This document shows, piece after piece, positions 9,107 through 27,789 of a stretch of DNA of 64,000 bases (position 1 is its first letter; every line of letters starts with the position of its first letter). This stretch comes from Pseudomonadota bacterium (GTDB taxonomy: Bacteria; Desulfobacterota; Syntrophorhabdia; Syntrophorhabdales; Syntrophorhabdaceae), in NCBI GenBank assembly GCA_026388255.1, contig JAPLKC010000043.1:1-64000 (forward strand), written 5' to 3'. The translations under genes and the position numbers were made by a program. The notes under the pieces were generated by a model that saw only the letters and a list, made by a program, of their open reading frames with translations, was not told the DNA's origin and made no database searches.

Positions 9107-9165
9107 ATGAAAACAGACATATGCAAAATGTTGTGCTATAATAGATAGTCAAGGACAGACTGCAG

Positions 9166-10848: not shown

Positions 10849-10979
10849 GCATCGAACAGACACGCCCGGGCGATGATCAGCTCAGGATATCCCATTATAT
10901 TAAAGAGTAATTCATGTACTAATTCAATGTACTGTTGAGAATTTCGTAAAAAATATGTTAGCATAGTCTTTAAAAAGCC

Positions 10980-11540: not shown

Positions 11541-11560
11541 ATAAAGAAAAAGGATTTCCA

Positions 11561-12664
11561 ATGAACATACCGGTTATAAACTTGAAAGAACAATACAAAA
11601 AGGTAAAAAAGGATATTTCGAAGAGTTTGGAGGAGATTCTGTCGGAGCAAAGACTGATCCTCGGCAAATACTGTACCTTGCTTGAAAACGCTATTGCAGA
11701 TTATGCCGGTGTGCCTTATGCAATAACATGTGCAAACGGCACCGATGCATTAATCCTTTCTCTCATGGCGCTCGGCATAAAAGAGGGTGACGAGGTCATT
11801 ACAACACCGTATACATTTTTTTCAACAGCAAGCTCTATTGCCCTTCTGGGGGCAAAACCGGTGTTTGTTGACGTGAGGAAGGAAGACCTTAATATTGACC
11901 CTGTGCTTATTGAGCTCGCAATAACACCGAAAACAAAGGCTATCACAGTAGTTCATCTCTTTGGAAAACTCTGCGATATGGACAGTATATGTAAAATCGG
12001 AAAAAAATACGGAATTCCTATTGTTGAGGATATGGCGCAATCACTCGGCGCCCGGCGAAATGGAAACATGTCCGGAAGCTTTGGAGACATAGCATCCCTG
12101 AGCTTTTACCCGACAAAAAACCTGGGTGGCATAGGTGAAGGCGGGATGGTGCTTACAAAGAGAAAAGACCTCGGCGAGAAGGCAAAAAAACTCAGGGTTC
12201 ACGGCATGGGTAATGCCACTTACCATCATGAAATGATAGGCATAAACAGCAGGCTTGACGAGATAAAGGCATGCGCCCTTGTTGCTAAATTTCCCTACCT
12301 TGAATCATGGAATGCAAAAAGGATTGAAAACGCAAAATTTTACAACAAAAAACTGGGTGGTTTGCCTATTATGCTTCCTCAGCTTGACAACGATACATCC
12401 CACATTATCCATCAATACGTTATAAGGGTAAAAGAGAGGGACAGGCTCCAGGGTTTTTTAAAAGAGAAGGGTATTCAGACAGGGATATATTATCCTGTCC
12501 CGCTTCATCTCCAGGAATGCTTCGGCTACCTGGGTTATGCAAAAGGTTCTTTTCCCGTCTCAGAAGATGCTGCTTTAACAAGCCTCGCTCTTCCGGCATA
12601 CCCTGAACTGAAAAAGACGGAGAAAAACTATATTATAGATGCCATAAAGGAATTCTTTCATTAA
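11561..12664 (+). CDS. DegT/DnrJ/EryC1/StrS family sugar aminotransferase
   Basis: PLP enzyme of 367 aa that makes amino sugars for surface polysaccharide or antibiotic-like sugars from keto-sugar nucleotides. The N-terminus (IPVINLKEQYKKVK), CANGTDALILSL, EDMAQSLGARRNG and the PLP lysine in SFYPTKNLGGIGEGG (Lys186) are all present, so it should be active. No other sugar-nucleotide genes are nearby. It is the last gene before the tRNA-Sec. Confidence 0.92.
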   Translation: MNIPVINLKEQYKKVKKDISKSLEEILSEQRLILGKYCTLLENAIADYAGVPYAITCANGTDALILSLMALGIKEGDEVITTPYTFFSTASSIALLGAKPVFVDVRKEDLNIDPVLIELAITPKTKAITVVHLFGKLCDMDSICKIGKKYGIPIVEDMAQSLGARRNGNMSGSFGDIASLSFYPTKNLGGIGEGGMVLTKRKDLGEKAKKLRVHGMGNATYHHEMIGINSRLDEIKACALVAKFPYLESWNAKRIENAKFYNKKLGGLPIMLPQLDNDTSHIIHQYVIRVKERDRLQGFLKEKGIQTGIYYPVPLHLQECFGYLGYAKGSFPVSEDAALTSLALPAYPELKKTEKNYIIDAIKEFFH

Positions 12665-12838
12665 TAGACTGTTGTTAAGAGTGCTTTTGTCCATTCGATC
12701 CGTTTGTATGAATTTCGCCTTTATTACAGATGTCCCTTTACGGACAGGCAGGCAAGACAGGGGTCGGCCATACTTATGGAAATTTCCGGATACAAGTAGA
12801 TTGACAAAAATGCATACATTTAATACATTATTCACAAT

Positions 12839-12934
12839 GGAAGTGCCAAGGCGCCTGGTGGGTCTCCTGGTCTTCAAAACCAGTGCACGGGTGTAGAGCC
12901 CGTGGGTGGGTTCGATTCCCATGCACTTCCGCCA
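12839..12934 (+). tRNA. selC: tRNA-Sec (anticodon TCA)
   Basis: 96 bases including an encoded CCA. The acceptor stem has 8 pairs (GGAAGTGC with GCACTTCC), as expected for selenocysteine tRNA. The anticodon arm CTGGT-CTTCAAA-ACCAG carries TCA at 12874-12876, a long variable arm pairs CACGGG with CCCGTG, and the T loop is TTCGATT. This reads UGA as selenocysteine with SelA, SelB and SelD, none of which is in this window. yedF at 53 kb fits the same trait. Confidence 0.96.
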
Positions 12935-12955
12935 TAACTTGTTGATTTAATTAAT

Positions 12956-13001
12956 TGTGATCGGTACAATAAGTTGGTCCTTTTAACCAGCTTATGCTAC
13001 C
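12956..13001 (+). repeat. Diverged copy of the insertion-sequence-like end repeat
   Basis: These 46 bases match the minus strand of 28247-28292 with three mismatches. The arms GGTACAATAAGTTGGT and ACCAGCTTATGCTACC form an imperfect hairpin around CCTTTTA. It begins 22 bases after the tRNA-Sec gene, a place where mobile DNA often integrates. No transposase gene is present. Confidence 0.7.
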
Positions 13002-13354
13002 CAACAAAGTTTTACGAATATTATCTCAATTTTGCTGATAATGCGGAAAAAATGAATGACGGGGATAGCAGGTTAGCACCCGTAATTCTCATAAATAACT
13101 GTCCTGTTTAATCAAAAACAGGTTCCAAAAGATGGTAAAATTGCTTCATGGTCATTCATATGCAGGTCAGGTTAAGCATTGTTGTGATAGACCACTTATA
13201 ATAATCAGGAAATTACTCAAACAAGGAAGGCTCTCATTCTTGATAATATGGCGTTCAGCTTCCCTCTCTACTCTCTAAACTTCCTCTCTGCCTCCCAAGA
13301 CAGCCAAACCTCAGTGAAAAGATTATTTATTAATGTAATCAATGACAAAGTTCC
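13002..13354. other. Intergenic region, nothing clear
   Basis: About 350 bases between the repeat and the convergent end of the CoA-transferase gene. The only structure I see is a short hairpin (CCTGTTT...AAACAGG near 13109-13128). No coding frame looks real. Confidence 0.4.
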
Positions 13355-14125
13355 CTACTTTCCCAGCACGATCCCTGTCGGGTCTATTTCCTCCCGTAGA
13401 AGTTTCAGATATTCCGGGGGAGGGGTCGGACTTTCTCTGATCACATCAGGGGGAATAATATCAAAACTGGAGTTCGCCTTTACCGATTCTATGGTCTCAC
13501 CGGGATGGAGAGAAAGAAGCTCTATTCTTTTCGATTCTGTATGAAACCCATAGATTGCAAACTGAGTCACAAGCCTGTATGGCCCTGTCCCTCTCGGCAG
13601 ACCCGCTTTCTCTCTGGAACCAGGACCGTCAAGATATCCCGCGCTGGTCAGAAAGTCAAGTTTATTGACAAAGGTCTGCTTAGATTGTTTTGCAGTTATA
13701 ATAATAAGCTTTTGAGAGAAAGATGCCACATCCGCGGCGCCTCCTGATCCGGGCAGTCTGGTTTTGGGGTGGTCGTGGTCTCCAATCACCGTAGTATTCA
13801 GGTTCCCGTATATATCGATCTGTGCAGCCCCAAGGAAACCATAGTCAATGTACCCTGCCTGTGATAGAGACATAATATCGTGCATACTGCTTGCCATAAT
13901 GCTTTTATGGAAGGTCCTCCCCTGTCCGACGGAAATGGGGAGTTCCGGTATGCGGGGGCCTATCCCTCCGGCCTCGAAGACAATGAGAAGGTTGGGGGCA
14001 TGGGTTTTCTGGGCAAGCATGGCGGCGATTATCGGAAGACCCGTACCCACGAAGACGGACTTTTTGTCTTCAAGCATTAAGGCTCCCAGATATGCAAGGT
14101 ATTCCCTTATATTATAGTTTTCCAT
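13355..14125 (-). CDS. CoA-transferase family I, beta subunit (glutaconate/3-oxoacid type)
   Basis: 256 aa. It resembles GctB-type subunits: GTGLPIIAAMLAQK, the probable catalytic glutamate in VFEAGGIGPR (Glu51, close to Glu54 of Acidaminococcus glutaconate CoA-transferase), and the glycine loop LPGSGGAADV. With the alpha subunit it moves CoA from a donor such as acetyl- or succinyl-CoA to a carboxylic acid. It is the last gene of the catabolic cluster, 6 bases after the alpha gene. Substrate unknown. Confidence 0.9.
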   Translation of the reverse strand: MENYNIREYLAYLGALMLEDKKSVFVGTGLPIIAAMLAQKTHAPNLLIVFEAGGIGPRIPELPISVGQGRTFHKSIMASSMHDIMSLSQAGYIDYGFLGAAQIDIYGNLNTTVIGDHDHPKTRLPGSGGAADVASFSQKLIIITAKQSKQTFVNKLDFLTSAGYLDGPGSREKAGLPRGTGPYRLVTQFAIYGFHTESKRIELLSLHPGETIESVKANSSFDIIPPDVIRESPTPPPEYLKLLREEIDPTGIVLGK

Positions 14126-14131
14126 AGTTCC

Positions 14132-15142
14132 TCACTTTCTCCAGGGAGCGCTCATGGGCTCTCTCATGGATTCTCTTCGTCTGAGATAATTCATCTGCCT
14201 GATGCCTCCGCAAAGCTCGAGATATTCTTCAAAATTGTGTACCCCGAATACATATTTCTGGAGATAGGCCTGCACGCCATCTTGGGTCTTAGCCATACCG
14301 AGCCATTCCGAGATATGTTCCTCATCGTAGAAGTAGACACCTGGCATCTCGCAGGGATGGGAGCCGTAGGGCGATTCAATAACTGCGTCAACACAGAAGA
14401 AGGGGATGACCGTCCTCCATGGTTCATCGCGGATCATCTCATCATTGACAATCTCTTCCGCTGTGACAATGAGCCTGCGGGCGCATCGGGCTAATTCGAA
14501 ATCTTCCACTGTAATGCCGTCGATCTGGGCGTTTCCGTAAACATCAGCGCGGTTGACATGTATAAATGCCGCATCAGGGTAGGCCGCCGGAATAAGCACA
14601 ATGGGATTTCCCGTATATGGATCCCTCGCGGTTTTGCAGGAACTGTATTTCAACGTATCGGTCCCGAGTAAGGTGCGGGAGGGAATAAAGGAAAGACCCA
14701 TCATACCTGCAAGGAACCGCCATTGATACCCGCCGTTGCTTGTTTCTGCAAGGACTTTGCACTCCCCGCTTTCTACCATCCTTTTTCCTGCCGGGGAGAG
14801 GCCTCTTAACTCGTGACCAAAGGAGTAAGCGGGTTCTACCCTGTTCACACACCCGGAACCGACAAGAAGATCGAGGTCGTGAACTGCTGTTTTTCCTGCC
14901 ATGGCAAGATTTCTCTTCTTCTGTCTTATTATCTCGTAGATGATCTCCATGGAGACTCTGACATGACCAAAGCCTCCGCTTGCAATATAGTCCCCATCTC
15001 CGACAAACTGTTCTACCGCCTCTTTGGCAGTCATCAGCTTGCTTTTCAGTTCCCGGGACTTCTTTTTCTGCACCCATTCGCGGGCCTCATCGGGGTGATG
15101 CCATCCGATAAGCTCGCCCGATCCTTCATCCAGTATTTCCAT
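14132..15142 (-). CDS. CoA-transferase family I, alpha subunit
   Basis: 336 aa from the ATG at 15142, chosen for its AAAGGAG ribosome site; the frame is open further upstream but would overlap the cyclase gene. MTAKEAVEQFVGDGDYIASGGFG and VHVNRADVYGN-type text (IHVNRADVYGNAQIDG) are typical of the alpha subunit, which binds the CoA moiety. It pairs with the beta gene directly downstream. Expected to work as a heteromer in the cytoplasm. Confidence 0.9.
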   Translation of the reverse strand: MEILDEGSGELIGWHHPDEAREWVQKKKSRELKSKLMTAKEAVEQFVGDGDYIASGGFGHVRVSMEIIYEIIRQKKRNLAMAGKTAVHDLDLLVGSGCVNRVEPAYSFGHELRGLSPAGKRMVESGECKVLAETSNGGYQWRFLAGMMGLSFIPSRTLLGTDTLKYSSCKTARDPYTGNPIVLIPAAYPDAAFIHVNRADVYGNAQIDGITVEDFELARCARRLIVTAEEIVNDEMIRDEPWRTVIPFFCVDAVIESPYGSHPCEMPGVYFYDEEHISEWLGMAKTQDGVQAYLQKYVFGVHNFEEYLELCGGIRQMNYLRRRESMREPMSAPWRK

Positions 15143-15167
15143 GCTTTCTCCTTTATCCTTCTGATCT

Positions 15168-15971
15168 TTATTCTTCCCAAACAAGGGCAACGGGTCTTAC
15201 CCATCCGGCACTTGCCCGTTTTACCTTAATAGGGAAACAACAAATAGTGAACCCGTAGGGACGGCCTATGGCGGAGAGATTGGCCATTTTCTCCATGTGA
15301 CAGTAACCTATCTCTATCCCGGCAAAATGGGCCTCCCATATGACCTTGCGGTCTTTTGTCTCTTCAAAGTCTTTGGCCTGAACAGAGAGGGGGCGGTCAA
15401 AGCTCCAAGCATCGATCCCCATTATCCTCACCCCTTTTCTCGCGAGAAAGAGGGTGGCCTCCCTGGTCATACCGGGACCCTTTGAGAGATATTCAGGCTT
15501 ACCCCAGAAAGCATCGGCGCCTGTATGAATAATCACTATGTCCATGGGCTTAATGTCGTAGCCTATCCTTTTCAATTCATCTTTGATGTCTGATACGGTA
15601 ATGCTATAGGAGTCTCCCTTATGACGAAAATCGAGAAGCGCCCCATCGTGGAAGCACCACTCGAGGGGTATCTCATCGATAGTCATGGAAGGCAGGCCGT
15701 TGTCCTGTGTTGGATGGTAATGGTATGGGGCATCCATATGGGTACCTGAGTGGGTAGTAAGGGTTATGGACTCGGCGGCCCAGCCGAGACCTTGAGGGAG
15801 GTCTTTGTCCTCCAATCCCGGGAAGAACTGCTTCATTGTTCTTCCGCCCTCGATATGGTCAATGTACTCTATCTTTGGTATAGAGACAGGCGGGTCACTT
15901 GGAAGGTCGGACTCTACGGTGATGCTCAAGTCAATAAAACGTGTATGTTTCCTATGTATATTATTGTTCAT
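15168..15971 (-). CDS. Cyclase family protein (kynurenine formamidase-like metal hydrolase)
   Basis: 267 aa. The family metal motif HSGTHMDAPYHY lies near residue 95, the starting element RFIDLSITVESDLPSDPP is present and GIDAWSFDRPL follows later. Relatives hydrolyse amides or open rings, for example kynurenine formamidase, isatin hydrolase and cyclohexanedione-type hydrolases. In this operon, ring opening or C-C/amide hydrolysis ahead of CoA activation is a sensible guess. GGGAGG precedes the ATG. Gaps of 27 and 25 bases to the neighbours support one transcript. Confidence 0.85.
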   Translation of the reverse strand: MNNNIHRKHTRFIDLSITVESDLPSDPPVSIPKIEYIDHIEGGRTMKQFFPGLEDKDLPQGLGWAAESITLTTHSGTHMDAPYHYHPTQDNGLPSMTIDEIPLEWCFHDGALLDFRHKGDSYSITVSDIKDELKRIGYDIKPMDIVIIHTGADAFWGKPEYLSKGPGMTREATLFLARKGVRIMGIDAWSFDRPLSVQAKDFEETKDRKVIWEAHFAGIEIGYCHMEKMANLSAIGRPYGFTICCFPIKVKRASAGWVRPVALVWEE

Positions 15972-15998
15972 ATTTTTTGGCCTCCCTTCCCATTTTTC

Positions 15999-16250
15999 TC
16001 AGGATTTATTACGTTCAACACTGTTTCGAAGGATGCCGATACCTTCCACTTTCAACTCGACAACGTCTCCGGGCTTGATCCACTTGTTCAGCTCTTTGCC
16101 GCAGCCATTACCCACTGTTCCCGAACCTATAAACTCTCCGGGATAGAGGGGGTCTTCCATGGACAGATATGTAATCAACTCGGAAACTCGAAATGCATAT
16201 CGCTGCTCCTGCCATCCGACTACATTCTTGTTTTTATAGCTTACGGACAT
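15999..16250 (-). pseudogene. C-terminal remnant of a fumarylacetoacetate hydrolase family protein
   Basis: Only 83 residues remain of a family length near 280. The end is unmistakable: SELITYLSMEDPLYPGEF, then GSGTVGNGCGKEL and KPGDVVELKVEGIGILRN, matching the substrate loop and C-terminus of FAA-hydrolase/acetopyruvate hydrolase-like proteins. The frame is closed by TAG at 16272-16274, which abuts the 3' end of the Fe-S gene, and no ribosome site precedes the first Met. The catalytic metal-binding half is missing, so it is most likely dead, cut by a deletion within the operon. Confidence 0.8.
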
Positions 16251-16280
16251 GCCCGCCCGTATATTTTTCGGCTAAAAAAA

Positions 16281-16814
16281 TTACAGCGGCACAAGCTTCC
16301 ATCGTGCCGAGACATAACATACTTTTCCCATATACACCTTATGTCTGCCTTCGGTTGCTTTGTCGAGTTCACGAGGCGTTACGTACTGGAGAGACCCACC
16401 TGAGCAGTGCTGGACACAGCTCGGAATAAGGCCGTATTCGAGGCGGTCGATACACATCGAACATTTCCACGCTGTACTTTTCTTCGGGTTGATCTGAATA
16501 GCGCCGAAAGGACACGCGTGCACGCAGTAACCGCATTCTTTGCACGCAGTGTTATCGACCAGAACAACTCCGTCTTTTCTTTTCGAGATAGCACCATGGG
16601 GGCATACCGCCATACACAGCGGGTCGTCGCACTGAAGGCATGTGGTAAACACAAAATCCGTGGTCAGTTCGCCATTTATGCTTCTTGGTTCTATGGTAAC
16701 CACCGAGACCGCCCTCGGCCCCGGGGGCAGATCATTCTCCTGTTTGCAGGCAACCTCGCATGCAAAACAGCGTATGCACCTGTCTATATCAATCAGCAGC
16801 GTCCCGGTTTCCAT
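16281..16814 (-). CDS. 4Fe-4S dicluster electron-transfer subunit of a molybdopterin oxidoreductase
   Basis: 177 aa with the HycB/DmsB/NrfC pattern of four cysteine groups: CIRCFACEVACK, CLQCDDPLCMAVCP, CKECGYCVHACP and CSMCIDRL. It should carry four [4Fe-4S] clusters and shuttle electrons to or from the catalytic subunit encoded 3 bases upstream. There is no Tat signal, so the complex is probably cytoplasmic. GGAGGG precedes the start. Confidence 0.92.
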   Translation of the reverse strand: METGTLLIDIDRCIRCFACEVACKQENDLPPGPRAVSVVTIEPRSINGELTTDFVFTTCLQCDDPLCMAVCPHGAISKRKDGVVLVDNTACKECGYCVHACPFGAIQINPKKSTAWKCSMCIDRLEYGLIPSCVQHCSGGSLQYVTPRELDKATEGRHKVYMGKVCYVSARWKLVPL

Positions 16815-16817
16815 TCC

Positions 16818-19217
16818 TTAAGCCCTCCTGATTCTGCAGAGTTGGCAACGGAGCTGCGCCGATCCGATGGCGCGCGCGGAATGCGCATCATGGGTAAGTC
16901 TGTTGGCATTATTCCTGCCTGGCCATTGGGATGGTGCCAGGAGCACTCGTGGGTCTATCCCTTCCGTGAGGTAGGCATTTCCCTCAATACTACCCCTTGG
17001 GGATTCGACGATAACGGGGTCCCCCTGCCCTATTCCATGTTCGAGGGCCGTCTTCGGGTTGATGTAAACAAGGAAATCGGGGATTATCTCCCGGAGTACC
17101 GGAATGTTACGCAGTTCGGTGTGTCTGTATATAGCTTCCTTCCTTCCCGTCGTTAGTATAAGTGGAAATTCCCTGGCTATTTCAGGTGAGCTTATCGGAC
17201 TTTCCGAAGGTTCTGTGTGGAGTGGGAGAGGATCAAACCCCATAGATTCGAGCTTTTTTGAATAAAGTTCTACTTTGTAGGAAGAATGGAGACGTGAAAA
17301 ACCAAGGTTGGTAAACCCTGTCTTTTCATATTTCCTGTATGTATATGGGACCGTGTACCTACCCATATTCCTGAACTCTTCAAAAGTCATACCTGAAGGT
17401 TCGAGAATGGCGCCGCACATAGACTCTTCGTCTTTGAACATTAGATTGCCAAACCCGAGTCTAATAGCCAGTTCATTAATAATCTTATAATCGGACCAGC
17501 ATTCATTCACTTCTACTGCTTTCTGCTGAAGATGAATGTCATTGTAAGTCACCTGAAAAAACGTTTGGACAGACGAACGCTCCATCCATGTGGCTACAGG
17601 CAGGACAATATCAGCTAGAAGAGCTGTGGGAGTCATAAAAAAATCAGCAACAGCAATAAACTCCAGTTTTTTCAAAGCCTTCATTACCATTGTGCTATTG
17701 CCGTATGAAAGCGCCGGGTTAGATCCCTGGCAGTACATTGCCTTTATAGGGTACGGTTTTCCCGTAAGAATGGCCTTCCAGACCGTTGGGGCGTGTGCTG
17801 TGGGAGACCAGGAGTCTTTGCCTGCAAGGAGAGGAAATCTCTTACTGCCCAGCCTCTTTTCATGGTCTTCTTCTGTCAGAAGTTGATTAAGACTGATATT
17901 GGGATTAACCGGACGCGGCATGGGAAGTATGTTGCCACCTGGTACATCAATATTGCCCGTAATTGCTGCAAGTATTCCAAGCGACATACAGGACGATATG
18001 GTATCGGCGTTCTGCTCGGTTGCGACACATTGCATGAGCAGTGCCGGTGTTGTCATGGCATAAAGTCTCGCAGCTTCAATGATTTTCTGTGAAGGAACCC
18101 ATGTTATTTCTTCGGCTTTCCGAGGAGGGTAATCCTGGACTCTCTCCTTCAATTCCTCAAATCCGTTGCACCATATATCAACAAAATCTTTGTCGTAAAG
18201 ACCTTCATTGATTATCACATTGAGCATCCCCAAGGCCAGGGCAGCATCGCTCCCGGGCCTCAACTGCAGCCAGAGGTCCGCTTTGGAGGCTATCTCGGAA
18301 AAAATAGGGTCAACTACAATTAATTTTGCACCCAATGCCCTGGCATCCATCATCCACGAACATTTTATGGGAGATGTGTTGGGAGGATTCATGCCCCACA
18401 CGAGCATACACTTTGTCACCTCCGGGTGAAGAAAAAGGTCCGGGCATTCAAGGGCAGGGGCAATGCCGAGAAGCTGCTGAGAGGTAAACCTGGGCCAGAG
18501 ACACTGTGCGTAACCGGGACCCACTAACTGATGACGAAATGCATTGGCAAACCGCTCGAAATATTGAACCCATCCTCTCGCAGTACCCGTTGCGAGAAGC
18601 ACGGCATCCTTTCCATAATCCCCTTCGATCTCTTTGAGTCTCCGGGCTATGGTGTCCAAAGCTTCATCCCAGGAAATCTTTTCCCAATTACCGGAGCCCC
18701 GGCGGCCGACACACTTCAGCGGATGTCTCAGTCTCTCGGGATGCTGAATCTGGTACTTCGAGGCCAGACCCTTTGCGCAGAGTATTCCCCTCGTAGTGGG
18801 AGAGCTTGGATCACCCTCAACCTTCACTACCTTTCCGTCTTTCACAAAAACCAGTGCATCACATCCATTATTGCAGTTACAGCAGGAACTCTTGAATACT
18901 GTCGCCCCGGTCCGCTCGTCCAGCCTCGTGGACTGAAGCCTTTCACTCCGCCTTTGAGGCACGTATCCGGGGGCTGCGACTTTTTCAAGACAATCGCCGA
19001 TCAAACGGGAGGCAAGGGTTTCTTTCTTACATTTCGGGCAGAGCATTAAGAAGCTCAAATCCTTGCAATCACCCCTCTCACTGAGAAGAACGGTAAGCTT
19101 CATAAGCAGCTTTGCTGAAATAACCGGTTGCCCGCACTTCAGGCATGGCATTTTCGATGCTGCCTCGGTTTTTCTTCGTTTATCACTCACAATTTCTTTT
19201 CCGATTGTCTTCATCAC
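16818..19217 (-). CDS. Molybdopterin (Mo/W-bis-MGD) oxidoreductase with N-terminal zinc-ribbon-like extension
   Basis: 799 aa, DMSO-reductase superfamily. Residues 25-63 hold two CxxC pairs (CLKC 25/28, CPKC 60/63) that look like a zinc ribbon. The [4Fe-4S] motif follows at Cys112, 115, 119 and 147. NWEKISWDEALDTIA, VWGMNPPNTSP, AKLIVVDP and LRPGSDAALALGM mark the pterin domains, and PIKAMYCQGSNPALS plus the C-terminal molydopterin-binding domain complete it. The probable metal ligand is Cys239 (GYAQCLWPRF), not selenocysteine. No Tat signal. Enzymes of this fold include formate dehydrogenase, acetylene hydratase and pyrogallol transhydroxylase; the substrate here is open. Confidence 0.88.
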   Translation of the reverse strand: MMKTIGKEIVSDKRRKTEAASKMPCLKCGQPVISAKLLMKLTVLLSERGDCKDLSFLMLCPKCKKETLASRLIGDCLEKVAAPGYVPQRRSERLQSTRLDERTGATVFKSSCCNCNNGCDALVFVKDGKVVKVEGDPSSPTTRGILCAKGLASKYQIQHPERLRHPLKCVGRRGSGNWEKISWDEALDTIARRLKEIEGDYGKDAVLLATGTARGWVQYFERFANAFRHQLVGPGYAQCLWPRFTSQQLLGIAPALECPDLFLHPEVTKCMLVWGMNPPNTSPIKCSWMMDARALGAKLIVVDPIFSEIASKADLWLQLRPGSDAALALGMLNVIINEGLYDKDFVDIWCNGFEELKERVQDYPPRKAEEITWVPSQKIIEAARLYAMTTPALLMQCVATEQNADTISSCMSLGILAAITGNIDVPGGNILPMPRPVNPNISLNQLLTEEDHEKRLGSKRFPLLAGKDSWSPTAHAPTVWKAILTGKPYPIKAMYCQGSNPALSYGNSTMVMKALKKLEFIAVADFFMTPTALLADIVLPVATWMERSSVQTFFQVTYNDIHLQQKAVEVNECWSDYKIINELAIRLGFGNLMFKDEESMCGAILEPSGMTFEEFRNMGRYTVPYTYRKYEKTGFTNLGFSRLHSSYKVELYSKKLESMGFDPLPLHTEPSESPISSPEIAREFPLILTTGRKEAIYRHTELRNIPVLREIIPDFLVYINPKTALEHGIGQGDPVIVESPRGSIEGNAYLTEGIDPRVLLAPSQWPGRNNANRLTHDAHSARAIGSAQLRCQLCRIRRA

Positions 19218-19219
19218 TT

Positions 19220-19924
19220 CTACAGGCCCAGATATGCTTTTCTTACATGTTCACTTTCAGTTAATTCACATCCTGTGCCTTGGAGGCAAATCTGACCGTT
19301 TTCTACCACATAGGCCCGTCTTGCCAGCTCCAGGGTCTGGATGACTTCCTGGGAAACAAGGAGAATGGTAATACCCTGCTCATTCAGTTTTTTCAGAGTC
19401 ATTAGAATGTCGGTTGATAATTTGGGCGACAGGCTCATGGTGGGTTCGTCCAGGATAAGGACTGACGGACGCGACATCAATCCCCGACCTATGGCAAGCA
19501 TCTGCTGTTCGCCGCCTGAAAGGGTTTTGGCAAGCTGGTTCTGCCGGTCCTTGAGAATAGGAAAAAGGTCGTATACCTGTTGGAACGATTCCTCGATAAG
19601 TCTTCGGGGTCGCTTGAGATAGGCACCCAATTGAAGGTTTTCCTTTACCTTCATAAGAGGAAAAATCCTTCTCCCTTCCGGAACCTGAACAATCCCTAAT
19701 TCGCAGATCCGCCGGGGTGAGAGACCATCAAGTCTTTGTCCGTGGAATTCAATAGATCCTGCCGATATTCTCGTGAGACCCGAGATGGCGCGAAGAAGGG
19801 TCGATTTGCCGGCTCCGTTTGAGCCTATTATCGCCACAAATTCGTGATCGGCAACATCAATTCTAACATCCCTGAGGGCCTGCAGCTTACCGTATGATAC
19901 GCTTACATTATTTACACTTAGCAT
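19220..19924 (-). CDS. livF: Branched-chain amino acid-type ABC transporter ATPase
   Basis: 234 aa LivF. Walker A GSNGAGKSTLL, family marker GRRIFPLMKVKENL, signature LSGGEQQMLAIGRGLM and Walker B SVLILDEPTMSL are all intact. It energises import with LivG, LivH and LivM. It overlaps livG by 17 bases and ends 2 bases before the oxidoreductase gene, linking uptake to catabolism. Substrate may be an aromatic or organic acid, since this transporter class takes those too. Confidence 0.92.
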   Translation of the reverse strand: MLSVNNVSVSYGKLQALRDVRIDVADHEFVAIIGSNGAGKSTLLRAISGLTRISAGSIEFHGQRLDGLSPRRICELGIVQVPEGRRIFPLMKVKENLQLGAYLKRPRRLIEESFQQVYDLFPILKDRQNQLAKTLSGGEQQMLAIGRGLMSRPSVLILDEPTMSLSPKLSTDILMTLKKLNEQGITILLVSQEVIQTLELARRAYVVENGQICLQGTGCELTESEHVRKAYLGL

Positions 19925-20678
19925 ATGCTGCCCCCAAATACGCCTCGATCACCCTCGGGTTCCGAACAATCTCTTCGACCTCACCATCAGCAATTTTACG
20001 GCCGTAATCCAATACCATGATTCTGCTGCATGTTTCCATGAGGGCACTCAGGACGTGTTCGATCATTAAGATTGTAATTCCAAGTTCTTCGGATATCCTG
20101 AAGATAAGTTCAATGCCTTCCTTAACCTCGGAATCGTTTAAACCTGCGAAGACCTCATCAAGAAGGATCAGCTTGGGATTGATAGACAAGGCTCTGCCAA
20201 TCTCCAGACGTTTTCTCTCGGCCATAATCAGATCACCCGCCATTGCATCCTTTTTGTCTGCCAGACCCACAAATTCCAGAACCTCGAGAGCCCTTTGCCT
20301 GCCTGTCACAATATTGCTTTCGCTGGCGCCATAGAGAACCCCGACTGCGATATTGTCAAGGGCACTCAGCTCTTCGAAGGGTCTGACAAATTGAAAGGTC
20401 CTCCCGATACCCAGCCGGGCAATTCTGGATGGCTTCCATCCCCCGATAGAAGTGCCATTGAAGGTAACCTTACCGCCATCGGGTGCATAAAATCCCGATA
20501 TTGAATTGATGAGAGTAGTCTTACCGGAGCCATTGGGACCGATAAGCCCCATGATTTCTCCCTCTTTTACAACAAAATCGACTTCGGAAACAGCCGTCAA
20601 ACCGCCAAATCTCTTGGTTACCTTTTCTCCTGTGAGAATAGGCTTTGAATCGGGGGAATGTTTTGCGTGTTTCATCAT
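19908..20678 (-). CDS. livG: Branched-chain amino acid-type ABC transporter ATPase
   Basis: 256 aa LivG. Walker A GPNGSGKTTLINSISG, the LivG-specific region GIGRTFQFVRPFEELSALDN and Walker B KLILLDEVFAGL are clear, and the C-terminus has the usual VIEAYLGAAY. The signature LSGGQ is replaced by DLIMAERKRLEIGRAL, as LivG proteins often show divergence there. The start overlaps the HMGL gene stop by 4 bases (ATGA), implying coupled translation. Confidence 0.92.
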   Translation of the reverse strand: MMKHAKHSPDSKPILTGEKVTKRFGGLTAVSEVDFVVKEGEIMGLIGPNGSGKTTLINSISGFYAPDGGKVTFNGTSIGGWKPSRIARLGIGRTFQFVRPFEELSALDNIAVGVLYGASESNIVTGRQRALEVLEFVGLADKKDAMAGDLIMAERKRLEIGRALSINPKLILLDEVFAGLNDSEVKEGIELIFRISEELGITILMIEHVLSALMETCSRIMVLDYGRKIADGEVEEIVRNPRVIEAYLGAAYAKCK

Positions 20679-21919
20679 TTGATTTGAAGAACCTCCCTGG
20701 CCATGGATTCGAAGATCTCATCGGAAATGGACCATTTACGCACAATTGATTCGCGCTTGACCTTTTCCACAAGCTCATCGACCTGTTCTTTTGTGGCCGT
20801 AAAGCCAAATTTCTCCAGTTTATCCCTGACAATGGTCCCGCCGCTCATTTTACCGAGAATAAGGTTGACACCCCTGCGGCCGATTAACTCTGGTGCAAAA
20901 GCTTGGGTGCTGAAAGGTTTGTCTGTTTTGGCCATCCTTAGGGTCATGTCAACGACCATCCCTGACTCAAAGGTAAACTCGTTGTCCCCAATGATGGGTT
21001 TGTTGGAAGGAATAGGTATCTTGGCAATTTCCGATATAAGGCGGGAGGTGGGATATATGCGGTCAAGCCTTACGCCGGTATCGACCCCGAGAAGCAGTTC
21101 GGTACCCATAACTACTTCTTCGGTGGACGCATTTCCTGCTCTTTCACCAAGGGTGTTCATTGCAGTGTGGACCGTTACAGCCCCTGCCGCGATACCTGAA
21201 AGCATGACTGAGGTAGCCAGCCCGTAATCATTGTGAGCATGAAGGGCAACGGTAACATTCGGCGCCCATTCTTTGACTTTTCTTACCATATACATGGTTG
21301 TTAACGGGAGCCCAAAACCCATAGTGTCCGTATAGGTTATCTGATCAACTCCTGCTTCATTAGCCACTGCTTTGTATAATCTCTCAAGGAACGGCATGGG
21401 CGTTTTTGTGGCTTCCCAGGGCATGACCGAGGTTTCAAGCCCCAATTTCTTTGCAAGGGCCGCTGCTTTCACCAATTTTTCAACCATCTGATCCTCACTG
21501 AGACTCCACACAACCTCGCCGAACCATGGGGACGCTGGACATTCCACAACAACGCCGTCCGCACCGGCTTCAGCAGCAAACTCGACTTCTTTTTCAGCCC
21601 ATCTGCAGAGAAAAACTATCTTGGTCTTTCGTCCGGCCTTTCGCATCTTTACAAGTTCCTTTGCCACTTCTCTGTCATCGGATGAAATGATTGGGAGGAG
21701 TTCTACGCTGTACACACCCATGTCATCGAGGGCCTCATATATCCGAAGCTTTTCGTCCGGCTTGAGTGCTACATGCGGTGTCTGTTCAGCTTCCCGTAAT
21801 GTTACGTCATGGATACGGACCTTTTCAGGCAATGTATACTGCTGCCTGATCTCATCCAGGTAATTGAACTCTGTTACCCAGTATTTATCTGTCAACCATT
21901 TGTTTTTTTCTTCTGTCAT
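20675..21919 (-). CDS. HMGL-like (pyruvate carboxyltransferase domain) aldolase or lyase
   Basis: 414 aa TIM-barrel enzyme of the DRE-TIM family that includes isopropylmalate and homocitrate synthases and HMG-CoA lyase. The family motif HDVTLREAEQTPHV (Asp38, Arg42) and the metal site LHAHNDYGLA near residue 230 are present, as is GERAGNASTEEVVMG. The sequence between HMGL and the C-terminal half looks like the uncharacterised homocitrate-synthase-like group. A leucine-type regulatory domain is absent. Lying between livM and livG it is probably a dedicated C-C forming or cleaving step of this pathway, not leucine synthesis. AGGAGG precedes the ATG. Confidence 0.85.
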   Translation of the reverse strand: MTEEKNKWLTDKYWVTEFNYLDEIRQQYTLPEKVRIHDVTLREAEQTPHVALKPDEKLRIYEALDDMGVYSVELLPIISSDDREVAKELVKMRKAGRKTKIVFLCRWAEKEVEFAAEAGADGVVVECPASPWFGEVVWSLSEDQMVEKLVKAAALAKKLGLETSVMPWEATKTPMPFLERLYKAVANEAGVDQITYTDTMGFGLPLTTMYMVRKVKEWAPNVTVALHAHNDYGLATSVMLSGIAAGAVTVHTAMNTLGERAGNASTEEVVMGTELLLGVDTGVRLDRIYPTSRLISEIAKIPIPSNKPIIGDNEFTFESGMVVDMTLRMAKTDKPFSTQAFAPELIGRRGVNLILGKMSGGTIVRDKLEKFGFTATKEQVDELVEKVKRESIVRKWSISDEIFESMAREVLQIK

Positions 21920-21977
21920 TTATGTAACCTCCTGTTCATACTATTTTTATTATGAATCATAACGGTCTTTATATGTC

Positions 21978-22943
21978 TTAATTGGACTCTCGACTCGTTT
22001 TTCCTTCTACTTTGCTTTTCCTGAACAGACCTATCAGGCCGTTCGGCAAATACATGATTACCACCACAAGAAGGAGTCCGTATATTATTCTGGAGACCTC
22101 TGCACCTATGCCGGCTGCGGCAGTCAGTAATTCATTAATGATTATCAGAATGCTTGCTCCTACAATCGGACCAACCCATGATTTCCGGCCTCCAAGGAGA
22201 GCCATGAGGACCACAAGGACGGAGATATTCACATCGAAAATAAAATCCGGGTGAATATAACTCCTGTAGTATGCATAAATCCCTCCCACCACGCCTGCAA
22301 GAAATGCACTGATAACAAATGCCCATATCTTCAGCCATGTTGCGTTGACACCCTGGGTCTCGGCACTGTCCTCGTCATGAAATATCGACCTTAAACCGAG
22401 TCCGAATTTGGACCGCTCGACCCACATGGCAATAAGAATCACAATGAACATAAGAGCAAGCATAATTTCATAGAAAATCACCCGGTTTGCAAACATACTT
22501 ACCTTCATGAAGGGCAGCCAGAGCCCTGTTGATGATCCGAGAGACTCCACATTAATGACGACAACCCGGGCTGATAAGCCAAGACAGAATGTGACAAGGA
22601 CAAAATAAGGACCTCTCAGTCTGAGGCAGGGCCAGGCTATGATACCTGCCACTATAGCTGCGATCACACCTCCCAGGACCGAAGTGTAAAAGGGAGAGAG
22701 GCCCAGCTTGAGCAGCATGATTGAGCTTGTGTATGCTCCAATACCAAAGAATGCCGCATGACCGAAGTTCATGTACCCAGTGTATCCGCCGAATATGTTC
22801 CAGCCGCATGAAAGTGCTGCGTACATAAAAAGGCTGAACATGGCTGAAAGGTAGTAGACGTCAGGCCTTAGGAAAGGAAAAAGACCCAAGCCTATGACAA
22901 CCAGAAATAAGATTAAAATTGAGCGGTTCTTCTTTTCCATCAC
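21978..22943 (-). CDS. livM: Branched-chain amino acid-type ABC transporter permease
   Basis: 321 aa inner-membrane permease with about nine hydrophobic segments. LivM marks are GYTGYMNFGHAAFFGIGAYT and DEDSAETQGVNATWLKIWAF, the cytoplasmic coupling loop. It forms the channel with LivH. Ten bases separate it from livH; 58 separate it from the HMGL gene. Confidence 0.92.
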   Translation of the reverse strand: MMEKKNRSILILFLVVIGLGLFPFLRPDVYYLSAMFSLFMYAALSCGWNIFGGYTGYMNFGHAAFFGIGAYTSSIMLLKLGLSPFYTSVLGGVIAAIVAGIIAWPCLRLRGPYFVLVTFCLGLSARVVVINVESLGSSTGLWLPFMKVSMFANRVIFYEIMLALMFIVILIAMWVERSKFGLGLRSIFHDEDSAETQGVNATWLKIWAFVISAFLAGVVGGIYAYYRSYIHPDFIFDVNISVLVVLMALLGGRKSWVGPIVGASILIIINELLTAAAGIGAEVSRIIYGLLLVVVIMYLPNGLIGLFRKSKVEGKTSRESN

Positions 22944-22953
22944 TTCTCCGGAT

Positions 22954-23835
22954 TTATTGCTGAAAAAGACCCGTAGGCTTTACCAACAGTAACAGAATTA
23001 TTATTCCGAACAACACAAGGTTAATCCACGTCAAAGGGATGAGTGCAGAACTGATGCCTATGATAAGGCCTATAATAAGGCCTGATATGGCAGTTCCGAG
23101 AATGCTCCCCACTCCGCCGAGAATCACCACTGCAAAGACAAAAATGATCCAACCGTAATGTGTTGCCGGTTCAATCGAGTACATAAGACTCATGCAGGTA
23201 CCGGCGATCCCGGCGGTTGCCAGGGATACGCCATAGGTAACTGCAGTTATGGTGCTTGTTCTGATGCCCATCAGAACAGCCCCTTCCCGATCCTGCCATA
23301 TAGCCCTGGCTGCTTTTCCGAGAAAGGTATGGTGAAGAAAGATATATACAATCCCGACAGTGACGGCTGCAATGCCGAAACTGATGAGATGATTGACTGA
23401 AAGGGCTATATCGCCGATAAATATCGATTTCCCTGAAAAATCTGTTGTCACCAGCCTCGGAGTTGCTTTGCAGAAATAAAGCAGCATGTTCTCTACAATA
23501 ATGGTTATACCGAAGGTGAGCACCAGGGACGCCGATGTAAGGTCCCTGGTTTTTCGTGCAGTTAATCGGATAACCGTCCGATCCATGATGACTCCGATTA
23601 TAAAAAGAACCGGGATAACAATCACCAGGGAAACAAGGGGATGGACACCATAGAGTTCCAGGAGCCAGTAAGTGATGTATGCCCCTACCAGTGCAAACAC
23701 GGGGTGGCTCAGGTTTACCACATGGCTTATACCAAGTATGAGACTGAAACCTACGGCAAGGACCGTGAAAATTCCGCCCAGAAGGAGTCCACTCACTATA
23801 CTCTGGATGAATTGGTTTAATGATATTCCCTGCAA
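22954..23835 (-). CDS. livH: Branched-chain amino acid-type ABC transporter permease
   Basis: 293 aa with about eight membrane segments. GLLLGGIFTVLAVGFSLILG at the start, LSHPVFALVGAYITYWL and the coupling-loop text AIWQDREGAVLMGIRTS are typical of LivH. In most LivH the text after the first loop is NFAHG; here it is NLSHP. It lies between livK and livM on one transcript. Confidence 0.92.
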   Translation of the reverse strand: MQGISLNQFIQSIVSGLLLGGIFTVLAVGFSLILGISHVVNLSHPVFALVGAYITYWLLELYGVHPLVSLVIVIPVLFIIGVIMDRTVIRLTARKTRDLTSASLVLTFGITIIVENMLLYFCKATPRLVTTDFSGKSIFIGDIALSVNHLISFGIAAVTVGIVYIFLHHTFLGKAARAIWQDREGAVLMGIRTSTITAVTYGVSLATAGIAGTCMSLMYSIEPATHYGWIIFVFAVVILGGVGSILGTAISGLIIGLIIGISSALIPLTWINLVLFGIIILLLLVKPTGLFQQ

Positions 23836-23907
23836 AGTATTTCTCCTAACAATATTTATTGAGCTGCAACAATTTCATAACGGAGAAAACAACGTTCTCT
23901 TCTCCGA

Positions 23908-25107
23908 TTATTTCCCCCATGGTGGTTTGGGATATATTGGTTTTGCTGTTGTGGCTATCGGGTAGATCACCTCTGCCTTACCGTTGATCACCTGCATCAC
24001 GTAGGAATATGGCAATGGCAAGCCTTTTTCATCGAATCTGTATTTGCCGCTGATTATGGTGATCTCGTTCTTCCTCAGGAAATTCTTTATGTCATCCTGT
24101 TTAAGTGTTTTTGCACCTTCAACACCCTTCTGGAGTGTCTCGATCCAGCTATAGCCGAAGAGGAAGTATTCAGGGGCATCACGTTCACCCCACTTTTCCT
24201 TTGCAAGCTTATTGAGTTCCTTGATCCCCGGATAAGGAAGGCTGTTTACCATAATGACTGCCTGGAATACATAGTTGGCATCTGCACCGAGCGTCTTTGT
24301 CCAGGCCGGAGATGTGGCGGCAATAGACTGCTGGAAGAACTTCGGGTTGTAGCCCAGTGATTTGGCGGAACGTACGGTGAGAACTGCATCCGGGAAAAAT
24401 TGAGTACAGTAAAGAAGCTCCGCACCCCGCTCCTTGGCTTTGGAGATAATAGCATCGGCGCTTGTCAGAGGAGGATCATATGATTCCTCAAGAACAATCT
24501 TCATACCCAGTTTTTCTGCCCATTTACGCTCAGGGATAATACCTGAACGGCCTATGGGATTGTTCAGTCTGATAAAGGCAACTGATTTCGGTCTGTCTTT
24601 GGCAGGCAAACTGTCAAGAAACATAAAAAAGGCGGCGCTAAGCCACTCTCCCATCATAGGAGTAGCGCTGAAGGAATACTGAAACCCCTGACTGAAAGAT
24701 GCCATGTGACCACCCTGGGAGATATAAATCATGCCGTATTTTTCTGCCACAGGCATCTGAGCGGCACAAGTGTTTCCAGGATATCCACCGATGAGGAGAT
24801 CAGCTTTGTCTACCGTGATGGCTTTTTCAAGAAGCATGACCCCTTTGTCCGGTTTACCCTCGTCATCATATATTACGAGCTCCACAGGACGGCCCAAAAG
24901 CCCTCCGGCCTTATTAATTTTTTCAACCCAATATTCATAGCCCCGTTTTACCCATTTTGCGTTATCCGCAACCGGGCCGGTTATGGGAAGGGTGCCGCCA
25001 ATTTTTATAGGCTTTCCCTTTGGTTCAGCCGCAGTCGCTAAAGACATTGCGAGCAACGTCATAAAACATACACAGATTAAAATTACGAATAATCTCCCTC
25101 TTTTCAT
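23908..25107 (-). CDS. livK: ABC transporter substrate-binding protein, LivK/amide type
   Basis: 399 aa periplasmic binding protein from the ATG at 25107 with GGAGG upstream; an in-frame TTG four codons earlier is not needed. A signal peptide (MKRGRLFVILICVCFMTLLA, cleavage likely after TAA) leads to KIGGTLPITGPVADNAKWVK, the Peripla_BP_6 fold. It captures the pathway's substrate outside the inner membrane. First gene of the cluster, downstream of the sigma-54 promoter at 25365. Confidence 0.9.
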   Translation of the reverse strand: MKRGRLFVILICVCFMTLLAMSLATAAEPKGKPIKIGGTLPITGPVADNAKWVKRGYEYWVEKINKAGGLLGRPVELVIYDDEGKPDKGVMLLEKAITVDKADLLIGGYPGNTCAAQMPVAEKYGMIYISQGGHMASFSQGFQYSFSATPMMGEWLSAAFFMFLDSLPAKDRPKSVAFIRLNNPIGRSGIIPERKWAEKLGMKIVLEESYDPPLTSADAIISKAKERGAELLYCTQFFPDAVLTVRSAKSLGYNPKFFQQSIAATSPAWTKTLGADANYVFQAVIMVNSLPYPGIKELNKLAKEKWGERDAPEYFLFGYSWIETLQKGVEGAKTLKQDDIKNFLRKNEITIISGKYRFDEKGLPLPYSYVMQVINGKAEVIYPIATTAKPIYPKPPWGK

Positions 25108-25364
25108 TTTAACCTCCAAAAATTATTTTGCATCTTAAACCATTATACAACCATGTTTTGTTTTTCATCGTAATAATACAAATTATTACACATTGTATGC
25201 AGCCCATTCAGATCTGGCAAGCTCCTGCCGATAAACACTGCCAGCAACTCTCGGAACATGTGTCAGCAGTTTTTTTGAATTTTCTATAATCATGAATCCT
25301 TTCGTGCATTGTAAAACTATACGCTTCATTTAACAGATAAATTGATCAGCACTAAATAACTAAT

Positions 25365-25381
25365 TGCACTACTCATGCCAA
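25365..25381 (-). promoter_or_regulatory. Sigma-54 (-24/-12) promoter for the catabolic operon
   Basis: The minus strand reads TTGGCATGAGTAGTGCA. Compared with the RpoN consensus YTGGCACGRNNNTTGCW, 11 of 13 defined bases agree if I count the flanks, and the invariant GG and GC are ten bases apart. Transcription would start near 25354, giving a leader of about 245 bases to livK. A sigma-54 activator gene ends 180 bases upstream on the same strand, which is the usual arrangement. Confidence 0.65.
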
Positions 25382-25560: not shown

Positions 25561-27687
25561 TCAGATTATTGGGCGCTGGATGCCCAATTTTTTCATCCAA
25601 TATCTTAGCGTGCTCGCCTTGAGGCCCAGGCACCGGGCAGCCCCGGTAGGCCCTTCAATCTTCCAGTTGGTATCTTTAAGCGCTTTATTGATTTCTCGTT
25701 TGTATTTTTCAAGCTGCTGCTCTTTATTTGGAGACTTGCCTGAAAAGCGGAGCGGTATTTCAATATGAAGGTTGCCGCCACTGCTTGTGATCACCGCTCT
25801 TTCGATGACATTCTCCAATTCTCTGATGTTTCCAGGCCAGGAATAATTTTGCAATTCCTTAATCGTTTTCATAGAGATTGCATCAAATTGTTTCCCGATT
25901 CGCTTTCCATGTTTGTCTGCAAACCATCTCACGAATAGGGGTATATCTTCCACACGTTCTCTGAGCGGAGGAACATAGATCGGGAAAATACTCAAACGGT
26001 ACCAAAGATCCTCACGGAATCTTCCAGCTTCCACTTCCTTTTCAAGATCCCGGTTTGTCGCCGCAATCACCCGCACATCCGTCTTAATTGTGATACTTCC
26101 ACCGACCCGCTCAAATTCTCCATCCTGAAGCACACGGAGCAGTTTTGCCTGAAGCTCAAAGGGAAGTTCGCCGATCTCATCGAGAAAGAGGGTCGTACCA
26201 TTTGCAAGCTCGAACCGGCCCAATCGTCTCGACTGGGCGCCGGTGAAGGCGCCTTTCTCGTGACCGAAGAGCTCGCTTTCTATTAGACTTGGCGTAAGAG
26301 AGGCACAGTTAACTTGAATCAAGGGCCTATCCTTGATTTTACTTGCGTTGTGGATGGCTCTTGCGATAAGCCCTTTCCCTGTACCCGTCTCGCCGAGCAA
26401 GAGGACGGTAGCATATGTAGGAGCTACTTGCTTTACCTTTACAAGAATCTGCTTCAGTGCAGCGCTTTTCCCCACAATGTCGCTAAAATCGTGTCCAAGG
26501 TTGATCTCTTCTCTGAGGTATGTGTAGTCGGCCTCAAAACGCTCTTTGAGTTTTCTTATCTCTGAAAGTGCGTTTTGTAACTTTTCCTCCGATTGCTTCC
26601 GTATTAGCGCATTCGCAAAGATCTCTCCGAAAAGACGCAGCCTGGGGATCAAATCTTGAGACCAGGTTCGATGTTTTTTGGTGGTCGTGAGAACAAGAGC
26701 ACCCACGGTCGAACACGCAACTGATACGGGGATTGATAAGATAGATTTGACACCTATTCTAAGATAGAATTGTCTCACCCTTTCTGCTTCTTTGGGAAGT
26801 TCATCAAGGGTTGTCAGTTGCAGGGGTTCGCCCTTTGACCATTTTTCGAAGACATATTGAAGATCTTCAAAAAAGTTTGGGTCGCTTTGCATCCGTTCCT
26901 CGATAACTTTGCCGGTCACATTCTCCTTCTCCGGCACCCAGACAAAGGGTAAATCAAATCTAAATGAATGCTTGTCCTCATCGAGAAGATAAAAAACAGA
27001 TCTATCAACATCCAGAAGCTGCCCCAAACGGCCGAGATCATTTCTTATGACCTTTTCAACATTATTAGTGGGTAAATTGATGTAGGTAGCGGATATTTCA
27101 GATAAAAGATGTTCAAACCGTAAGAGTTCATGAATCTGATCCGCCGATTTTTTGCGCTCCATGGCACCGGCAAGGATCCCCCCAAGATGACGGAACTCTA
27201 CTACCAGTTCATCTGTCCAGATACTGCCATCATGATTTGAAGCAAGAAAAAGTATCCCACGGATTGGTTTGCACGCCTCAAGGGGCACTATCAGGGCAGA
27301 TTTGATACCTTTATTTGCACAAAAACACCTACCTGCCATCTCATTCTGAGGTAGATCATCAGGCAAATGGGCCAAGGCAAACGTCCTCCCATTGAAAAAA
27401 TCCGGAAAAATCCACTGAATATCTTCGTCAGTGATTGTGGCCGCAGATCCATCGGTTTCCTGATTTGTATAAGAATATATGATAGTGGCTTTTTTTCCGT
27501 CATCCGACAATCCAGTCAGGACAATCCAGTCAAACATGCCAAATTCCTGTGTAAGTTTGAGTCCTTTTTCGATCTCCTGATGAATATCGTAGGGCTGCAT
27601 TCCAATCAGCTTTGCGGAAAGTTCGAGCAGCGATTTTCTAAACCGATGCATCTTATCCAAGGACGCTTTTTTCTGCGTTAATTTCAT
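25561..27687 (-). CDS. Sigma-54-dependent transcriptional activator with GAF sensor domains
   Basis: 708 aa from the ATG at 27687 (AAGGA upstream; longer frame ignored). Two GAF-like domains occupy about residues 20-185 and 205-375, then a short coiled coil. The AAA+ core has Walker A GETGTGKG (432-439), the sigma-54 contact GAFTGA (479-484) and Walker B FLDEIGELP. The Fis-type HTH is at the C-terminus (GAARCLGLKASTLRYWMKKL). This is FhlA-like architecture: ligand binding to GAF domains controls ATP-driven opening of sigma-54 promoters. Its target is probably the livK promoter just downstream. Confidence 0.92.
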   Translation of the reverse strand: MKLTQKKASLDKMHRFRKSLLELSAKLIGMQPYDIHQEIEKGLKLTQEFGMFDWIVLTGLSDDGKKATIIYSYTNQETDGSAATITDEDIQWIFPDFFNGRTFALAHLPDDLPQNEMAGRCFCANKGIKSALIVPLEACKPIRGILFLASNHDGSIWTDELVVEFRHLGGILAGAMERKKSADQIHELLRFEHLLSEISATYINLPTNNVEKVIRNDLGRLGQLLDVDRSVFYLLDEDKHSFRFDLPFVWVPEKENVTGKVIEERMQSDPNFFEDLQYVFEKWSKGEPLQLTTLDELPKEAERVRQFYLRIGVKSILSIPVSVACSTVGALVLTTTKKHRTWSQDLIPRLRLFGEIFANALIRKQSEEKLQNALSEIRKLKERFEADYTYLREEINLGHDFSDIVGKSAALKQILVKVKQVAPTYATVLLLGETGTGKGLIARAIHNASKIKDRPLIQVNCASLTPSLIESELFGHEKGAFTGAQSRRLGRFELANGTTLFLDEIGELPFELQAKLLRVLQDGEFERVGGSITIKTDVRVIAATNRDLEKEVEAGRFREDLWYRLSIFPIYVPPLRERVEDIPLFVRWFADKHGKRIGKQFDAISMKTIKELQNYSWPGNIRELENVIERAVITSSGGNLHIEIPLRFSGKSPNKEQQLEKYKREINKALKDTNWKIEGPTGAARCLGLKASTLRYWMKKLGIQRPII

Positions 27688-27789
27688 TGAGTTTTCCTTA
27701 TACATCTTTAACATTCTATATGCATGAATGCAACAATGAACCCGACAATTATCTTTAAACTGCATACAGAATGCGGGCTTCTACCTTAA

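Follow-up and report, generated by a model that had tools for sequence, protein, structure and literature searches.

The stretch of DNA analysed here, 64,000 nucleotides of contig JAPLKC010000043.1 from a Pseudomonadota bacterium that GTDB places in the Syntrophorhabdaceae (assembly GCA_026388255.1, genome G000; hereafter the window, to whose positions all coordinates refer), carries an operon of eleven genes that is composite, stitched together from two modules, and that is a variable island at selC, the gene for tRNA-Sec. That the whole is a composite island we hold with great confidence; the region is a patchwork and not a single classical pathway. Judging from the genes, the best overall explanation would be an island 3' of selC for the uptake and opening of a putative cyclic beta-dicarbonyl-type or oxo-acid compound, a reading to which we give an even chance.

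A composite operon of two modules

The genes run on the minus strand from 25119 (or from an ATG at 25107) down to 13355, in the order LivK-LivH-LivM-HMGL-LivG-LivF-Mo-FeS-cyclase-CoA-transferase A-CoA-transferase B (the last two CoT-A and CoT-B). An earlier reading of the letters alone, here called the original prediction, had described eleven genes on one strand with several overlapping pairs, and both points are borne out: all 11 open reading frames (ORFs) are present, with clear Pfam assignments, and three overlaps are seen (HMGL/LivG, 4 bp; LivG/LivF, 17 bp; cyclase/CoT-A, 23 bp). Scores lie well beyond the gathering thresholds for CoA_trans (twice), Cyclase (PF04199), 4Fe-4S, Molybdopterin/Molydop_binding/Molybdop_Fe4S4, HMGL-like with HCS_D2, and Peripla_BP_6. 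Genes within the block are spaced by -23 to +72 bases with the single exception of a 309-base gap at 15972-16280, on either side of which lie module A (LivKHM-HMGL-LivGF-Mo-FeS) and module B (cyclase, CoT-A and CoT-B, the latter two of GctAB type).

We regard the operon as composite because module A stands intact and alone in another genome and because a broken gene lies at the joint in the window. In G091, which belongs to another Desulfobacterota order, the order of module A is conserved at 64-79% identity, without a cyclase or a CoA-transferase, and is followed by an aldehyde dehydrogenase gene. The gap in the window holds the remnant of an FAA-hydrolase-family gene (16008-16199, minus strand) that has kept its C-terminal ~61 aa and lost ~260 N-terminal residues. 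It matches a gene at L015:3099-4112 (77% over 61 aa, E 3e-26), which is part of an HMGL-BKACE-Liv-cyclase cluster in genome G043; the remnant is in frame for that piece only, and a search of G000 recovered it again. Full copies of the FAA hydrolase occur in this HMGL cluster of G043 and, in genome G044, beside a cyclase (49%). We infer that the truncated gene is a recombination scar joining modules A and B.

The operon is a variable island at selC, since 15.4 kb are missing from a collinear genome of the same genus (G023). In DNA sequence that genome agrees with the window over 8663-12937 and again from 28293 onwards, with proteins 73-94% identical, and it lacks everything between 12937 and 28293, that is, the operon and a sigma-54 activator. 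The left boundary is selC itself (12839-12934, plus strand, anticodon TCA), as located by ARAGORN and by the comparison with G023. As is characteristic of selC islands, a foreign block thus lies directly 3' of the tRNA gene and is absent in a close relative. The same interval in G023 holds an unrelated 4.5 kb with a CHASE2-like Ser/Thr kinase, a PP2C phosphatase and an FHA protein (L159:11337-15329), and no close copy of this kinase was found in G000 (best match 37%). The spot next to selC is variable in both genomes, and either state may be the older one. GC content at third codon positions is 0.51 in island genes and 0.45 in flanking genes (p 1.5e-4). The insertion beside selC, the truncated gene in the gap and the sigma-54 activator upstream had all been missed by the original prediction.

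Its central claim, that one block joins uptake, a molybdenum enzyme with an Fe-S partner, an HMGL-like enzyme, a ring-opening-type hydrolase and a true CoA-transferase, stands as a description of an operon-like gene set. The further claim, that the set forms one joined pathway for one compound, is not supported in that form: module A is alone in G091, HMGL and Mo-FeS are separate in G043 and G044, the closest relative of the CoA-transferase accompanies a pyrogallol transhydroxylase in genome G029, and the gene at the joint is broken. Gene order in other genomes, which had been proposed as a check, gives a divided answer, with module A intact in G091 and the genes in unconnected loci in G043 and G044, an arrangement that had been named beforehand as counter-evidence and that is therefore present in part. 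That all enzymes act on one substrate we consider somewhat doubtful.

The strongest alternative is that modules A and B are adjacent by an accident of insertion, A serving an oxo or hydroxy acid imported through LivK, and B a ring compound that arises in the cell itself. The broken FAA-hydrolase gene with its 309-bp gap, the occurrence of module A by itself in G091, and the other transporters that accompany relatives of module B (for example TRAP in G029) all fit such a separation. It is opposed by the type of the remnant (73-77%), a type that also occurs in G043 within the HMGL-BKACE-Liv-cyclase cluster; elsewhere, then, HMGL and Liv are indeed found together with FAA hydrolase and cyclase. 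We consider separate substrates unlikely.

The ring-opening-type hydrolase and the CoA-transferase

The cyclase (15168-15971) is a PF04199 metal hydrolase of an LPSDPP subfamily, as assigned by Pfam and a subfamily alignment, and keeps the metal-binding motif of the family, with H74, H78, D80 and H84 invariant. A PF04199 enzyme of Clostridium scatologenes, dihydrophloroglucinol cyclohydrolase (DPGC), opens the cyclic 1,3-diketone dihydrophloroglucinol by retro-Claisen cleavage (PMC10470551). By analogy, the window enzyme might open a ring of the cyclic beta-dicarbonyl type, with the chances evenly balanced. It is not itself a DPGC and would be DPGC-like in action at most, because the positions of Trp20 and Tyr22 are taken by Asp and Pro (LPSDPP vs IPLWPY) and its subfamily carries an insertion of ~19 residues.

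This cyclase subfamily is present in 60 of 395 Desulfobacterota genomes. A Liv set of the window kind lies within ~7 kb of the cyclase in 6 of the 19 loci fetched (L087, L089, L092, L093, L096, L097), and a BKACE is adjacent in five (L087, L093, L097, L098, L099). The two BKACE proteins tested both scored just under the cut-off of 430 for NF053538 (3,5-dioxohexanoate:acetyl-CoA), at 416 bits (L087) and 396 bits (L105); the latter adjoins CoT-A/B. Clusters of cyclase and LivKHMGF, often with a BKACE and a TetR-like regulator, recur at L087:618-7774, L089:6196-11748 and L092:880-6992. This cyclase-Liv(-BKACE) cluster is found in many Desulfobacterota and marks a ring-opening system that is widespread and, apparently, not yet described.

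CoT-B (13355-14125) keeps the FEAGG motif with Glu51 and matches 1POI_B at E 2.8e-48 (77-78% identical to its counterpart in G029), and CoT-A (14132-15190) matches 1POI_A at E 1.4e-41 (70-71% to G029). Like glutaconate CoA-transferase GctAB (1POI), the pair thus has both subunits and the catalytic Glu motif of class I; it differs from GctAB in a ~49-residue N-terminal extension of subunit A. A decarboxylase of the AibAB type was rejected, as the catalytic Glu, replaced in AibB, is retained. These residues make it very likely that the pair functions as a CoA-transferase. Once the ring is open, the oxo acid might alternatively be handled by an FAA hydrolase, a BKACE or a CoA-transferase.

A route for trihydroxybenzenes (pyrogallol or phloroglucinol) would take the molybdenum enzyme for a transhydroxylase, the cyclase for DPGC and the CoA-transferase for the activator of triacetate. 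It draws on the retro-Claisen precedent of C. scatologenes and on the orthologs of CoT-A/B (70/78%), whose neighbours in G029 are a pyrogallol transhydroxylase and a BKACE. The window's molybdenum enzyme, however, matches the large subunit of pyrogallol hydroxytransferase (4V4C) weakly, at E 1.3e-15 compared with 6.5e-100 for acetylene hydratase (the G029 enzyme reaches 1109 bits); no 4V4C-type transhydroxylase was found in G000 at E 1e-150; the DPGC residues Trp20 and Tyr22 read D and P; and the island has no SDR reductase. With the DPGC residues and the 4V4C-type enzyme missing, we rejected membership in this pathway and consider it very improbable.

Both known systems share some features with the island. 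The phloroglucinol cluster of C. scatologenes (PGR, DPGC, TfD, TAL; PMC10470551) likewise sets a PF04199 cyclase beside genes for oxo-acid cleavage or CoA activation, and relatives of the window cyclase adjoin BKACE, the family of TAL; yet the window cyclase lacks Trp20/Tyr22, the island lacks the reductase, dehydrogenase and BKACE, and nothing in that cluster corresponds to its Mo-FeS and HMGL. The transhydroxylase locus of G029 (L105/L130) resembles it in pairing a molybdenum enzyme with an Fe-S subunit and in the CoT-A/B orthologs, whereas the window's molybdenum enzyme belongs to another subfamily (probably of Cys-ligand type), 27% identical to the transhydroxylase. G029 itself has a complete-looking pyrogallol-to-triacetate cluster (L130:8472-11540 and L105:548-7815), with a DPGC that carries the W-P-Y signature at the Trp20/Tyr22 place, an SDR, a 3-hydroxyacyl-CoA dehydrogenase, transhydroxylase, BKACE and GctAB-like transferase; genes for a TRAP transporter come next. 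A search of the benzene-activation clusters of Desulfobacterota (PMC13101534, PMC13416013) for the gene types of the window found none in common. Our literature search found no published cluster with this gene set, in agreement with the original prediction, which had seen no described pathway in it.

The molybdenum enzyme and the HMGL-like protein

The HMGL subfamily is confined to G000, G043, G044 and G091 among ~424 distinct genomes, apart from a short contig (L009, 56%), and the long subfamily of the molybdenum enzyme, defined by an N-terminal Cys4 extension, occurs in the same four of them at 55-70% identity. The next relatives of the enzyme are at most 48% identical and lack the extension. 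A contig scan with HMGL matched one short contig, and a plasmid search found no HMGL relative. Counting G043 and G044 once, the chance of this co-occurrence is ~8e-8, by simple combinatorics that take no other phylogenetic structure into account. The HMGL gene is at a separate locus, far from the Mo-FeS pair, in both G043 and G044, so that their joint presence there is not due to linkage; in G044 the Mo-FeS pair adjoins a LivK (47%). That the two enzymes work in one pathway, which we consider likely, is best supported by their shared presence in the same four genomes.

The enzyme itself (16818-19217) is a Mo/W-bisPGD oxidoreductase of the DMSO reductase superfamily without a Tat signal. Its Fe-S subunit of DmsB/TtrB type (16281-16814) has 16 Cys (four 4Fe-4S sites), and its gene starts 3 bp downstream; the pairing holds in 4 of 4 long-subfamily loci (window, G043, G044, G091). 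Cys239 is invariant in 10 homologs and aligned with the PsrA Cys, and is likely the metal ligand, as far as an alignment can tell; the region is ambiguous, as HMMER pairs Arg243, not Cys239, with acetylene hydratase Cys141 and formate dehydrogenase Sec140. Acetylene hydratase (2E7Z, E 6.5e-100) is the closest solved relative and, like related Cys-type Mo/W enzymes of Desulfobacterota, probably has a conserved Cys in common with the window enzyme, but it is a monomer without an electron-transfer partner, and its catalytic Asp13, beside the 4Fe-4S Cys motif, corresponds to Asn116 in the window enzyme, which also has the Cys4 extension and its own Fe-S subunit. Because of Asn116 and the adjacent 16-Cys subunit in all four loci, redox chemistry seems more likely than hydration, and we rejected identity with acetylene hydratase on both counts. 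Hydration of a C-C triple bond or an unsaturated acid followed by CoA activation would suit the kinship with 2E7Z and the invariant Cys in the metal-ligand region, but Asn in place of Asp13 and an Fe-S subunit that fits redox make it a very poor candidate.

The HMGL-like protein (20675-21919, between livM and livG) belongs to the homocitrate/isopropylmalate synthase family. Like homocitrate and 2-isopropylmalate synthases (6KTQ, 3RMJ), it has a TIM barrel, the catalytic Arg42, the metal ligands Glu43, His227 and His229 (R-[DE] and HxH motifs) and an HCS_D2 domain. It differs from them in reading REAEQ where they read REGEQ or RDGEQ, and in the H-x-[SA]-G-x-H motif, which is present in all five solved synthases compared (homocitrate, isopropylmalate, methylthioalkylmalate) and has lost both histidines here (FTFESGMVVD) as well as in L009, G043, G044 and G091, with F/Y/V and V/A in their place in 5 of 5 subfamily members. 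The His of the SGxH motif participates in acetyl-CoA activation in isopropylmalate synthase. Given this role and the lost histidines, we infer that condensation of acetyl-CoA is not the reaction of this protein, which more likely acts as a lyase or decarboxylase. A fold search with its model placed synthases on top and 4-hydroxy-2-oxovalerate aldolases lower, as expected of the fold. The label 'aldolase-like' in the original prediction was reasonable, although the closest family is that of the synthases and the C-terminal histidines are gone.

Another putative catabolic cluster of G091 (L018:2081-4793) has a second HMGL-like gene (34%) and a URO-D-family gene, adjoining another LivKHMGF set and xanthine-dehydrogenase-type genes.

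A possible route and its weak points

Under the preferred reading of uptake and ring opening, LivK and LivHMGF would take up a small compound, either cyclic or an oxo acid, which the cytosolic Mo/W enzyme would oxidise (or, less likely, hydrate), with electrons passing through the Fe-S subunit and its four clusters. The cyclase, a metal-dependent enzyme, would open a cyclic beta-dicarbonyl or acyl ring by hydrolysis, yielding an open-chain oxo acid, and the GctAB-type transferase would load CoA onto this acid so that it can be cleaved thiolytically; in relatives, FAA hydrolase or BKACE would do this work. The protein of HMGL type would cleave, or decarboxylate, a 2-hydroxy or 2-oxo acid by metal-dependent chemistry without acetyl-CoA condensation, and the sigma-54 activator would turn the operon on.

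Several points weigh against this reading. The island has no BKACE, thiolase or ring reductase, and downstream steps would need genes elsewhere; the cyclase subfamily search found no close relative in G091; and the broken FAA-hydrolase gene may mean that the route is altered or decaying. Two transcripts are possible, with a weak terminator-like hairpin between the modules (16309-16287) that does not exceed the shuffled number. The putative substrate and LivK ligand are read from the genes, and the HMGL reaction from lost residues only. The AlphaFold model of the molybdenum enzyme (mean pLDDT 62) is too poor to locate the metal ligand, and that of the HMGL-like protein falls below pLDDT 50 at 305-320, leaving the active site unplaced.

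More tentatively still, the Cys4-extended Mo/W enzyme, its Fe-S subunit and the histidine-less HMGL could form an undescribed two-enzyme anaerobic route, in which redox chemistry on an imported compound is coupled to acetyl-CoA-independent C-C cleavage, and which would move from one Desulfobacterota lineage to another as a module embedded in transporter genes that can be joined to genes for ring opening and CoA activation. As a candidate for an anaerobic catabolic step, the module ties together two poorly understood enzyme subfamilies by strict co-occurrence and appears in distant lineages, and it includes a transporter whose binding protein LivK could reveal the substrate. The window offers a catabolic operon caught in assembly: one module is intact, the gene at the joint is broken, and the whole is inserted beside selC.

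Transporter, regulator and island borders

LivK (23908-25119, with a possible ATG start at 25107) is a periplasmic binding protein (Peripla_BP_6, E 1e-47). The permeases LivH (22954-23835) and LivM (21978-22943) and the ATPases LivG (19908-20678) and LivF (19220-19924) were assigned from their ORFs and the comparison with G091. Directly upstream of the operon lies a GAF/sigma-54-interaction activator (25561-27765, minus strand), FhlA/NifA-like by its domain matches, which is likely its regulator. A putative but weak sigma-54 -24/-12 site, TGGCATGAGTAGTGCA (25365-25380, minus strand; 9 of 11 consensus bases), lies ~250 bp upstream of livK, and 14 sites as good occur in the 64 kb, both strands counted.

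The repeat GGTACNATAARTTGGTC has seven copies in the window, all confined to the two island borders, and was not found in ~67 kb of further G000 sequence. On the left, a degenerate repeat and hairpin copy, TGTGATCGGTACAATAAGTTGGTC, occupies 12956-13008 (DNA fold z -1.96); on the right, tandem 27-bp units, GGTACCATAARTTGGTCTTTGTCGTTT, fill 28132-28292 (the repeats with their hairpin at 28139-28285) and end in a long near-perfect, very stable hairpin (z -8). These border repeats with hairpins are possible mobile-element ends. No integrase gene was found among the island ORFs, nor a second tRNA end (tRNA-end duplication) in G000, and a target-site duplication via a 20-bp repeat (16220/28033) was rejected, with an alignment score of 36 compared with a shuffle maximum of 50. 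Near the right border lies the remnant of an HD-GYP domain gene (27778-27987, plus strand; 31% over 73 aa, E 1e-9, to window 9166-10848).

Partial 3' copies of the tRNA-Sec gene, of the kind that integration at selC leaves behind, occur next to the full gene or apart from it in G004 (C226), G032 (C128), G012, G016, G028 and G039, and such copies in several relatives suggest that in this class selC serves as a target of integration. Elsewhere in G000, a formate-dehydrogenase-like gene (L003, G000:C101:29607-31571) has one in-frame TGA, probably selenocysteine, which is consistent with the presence of selC.

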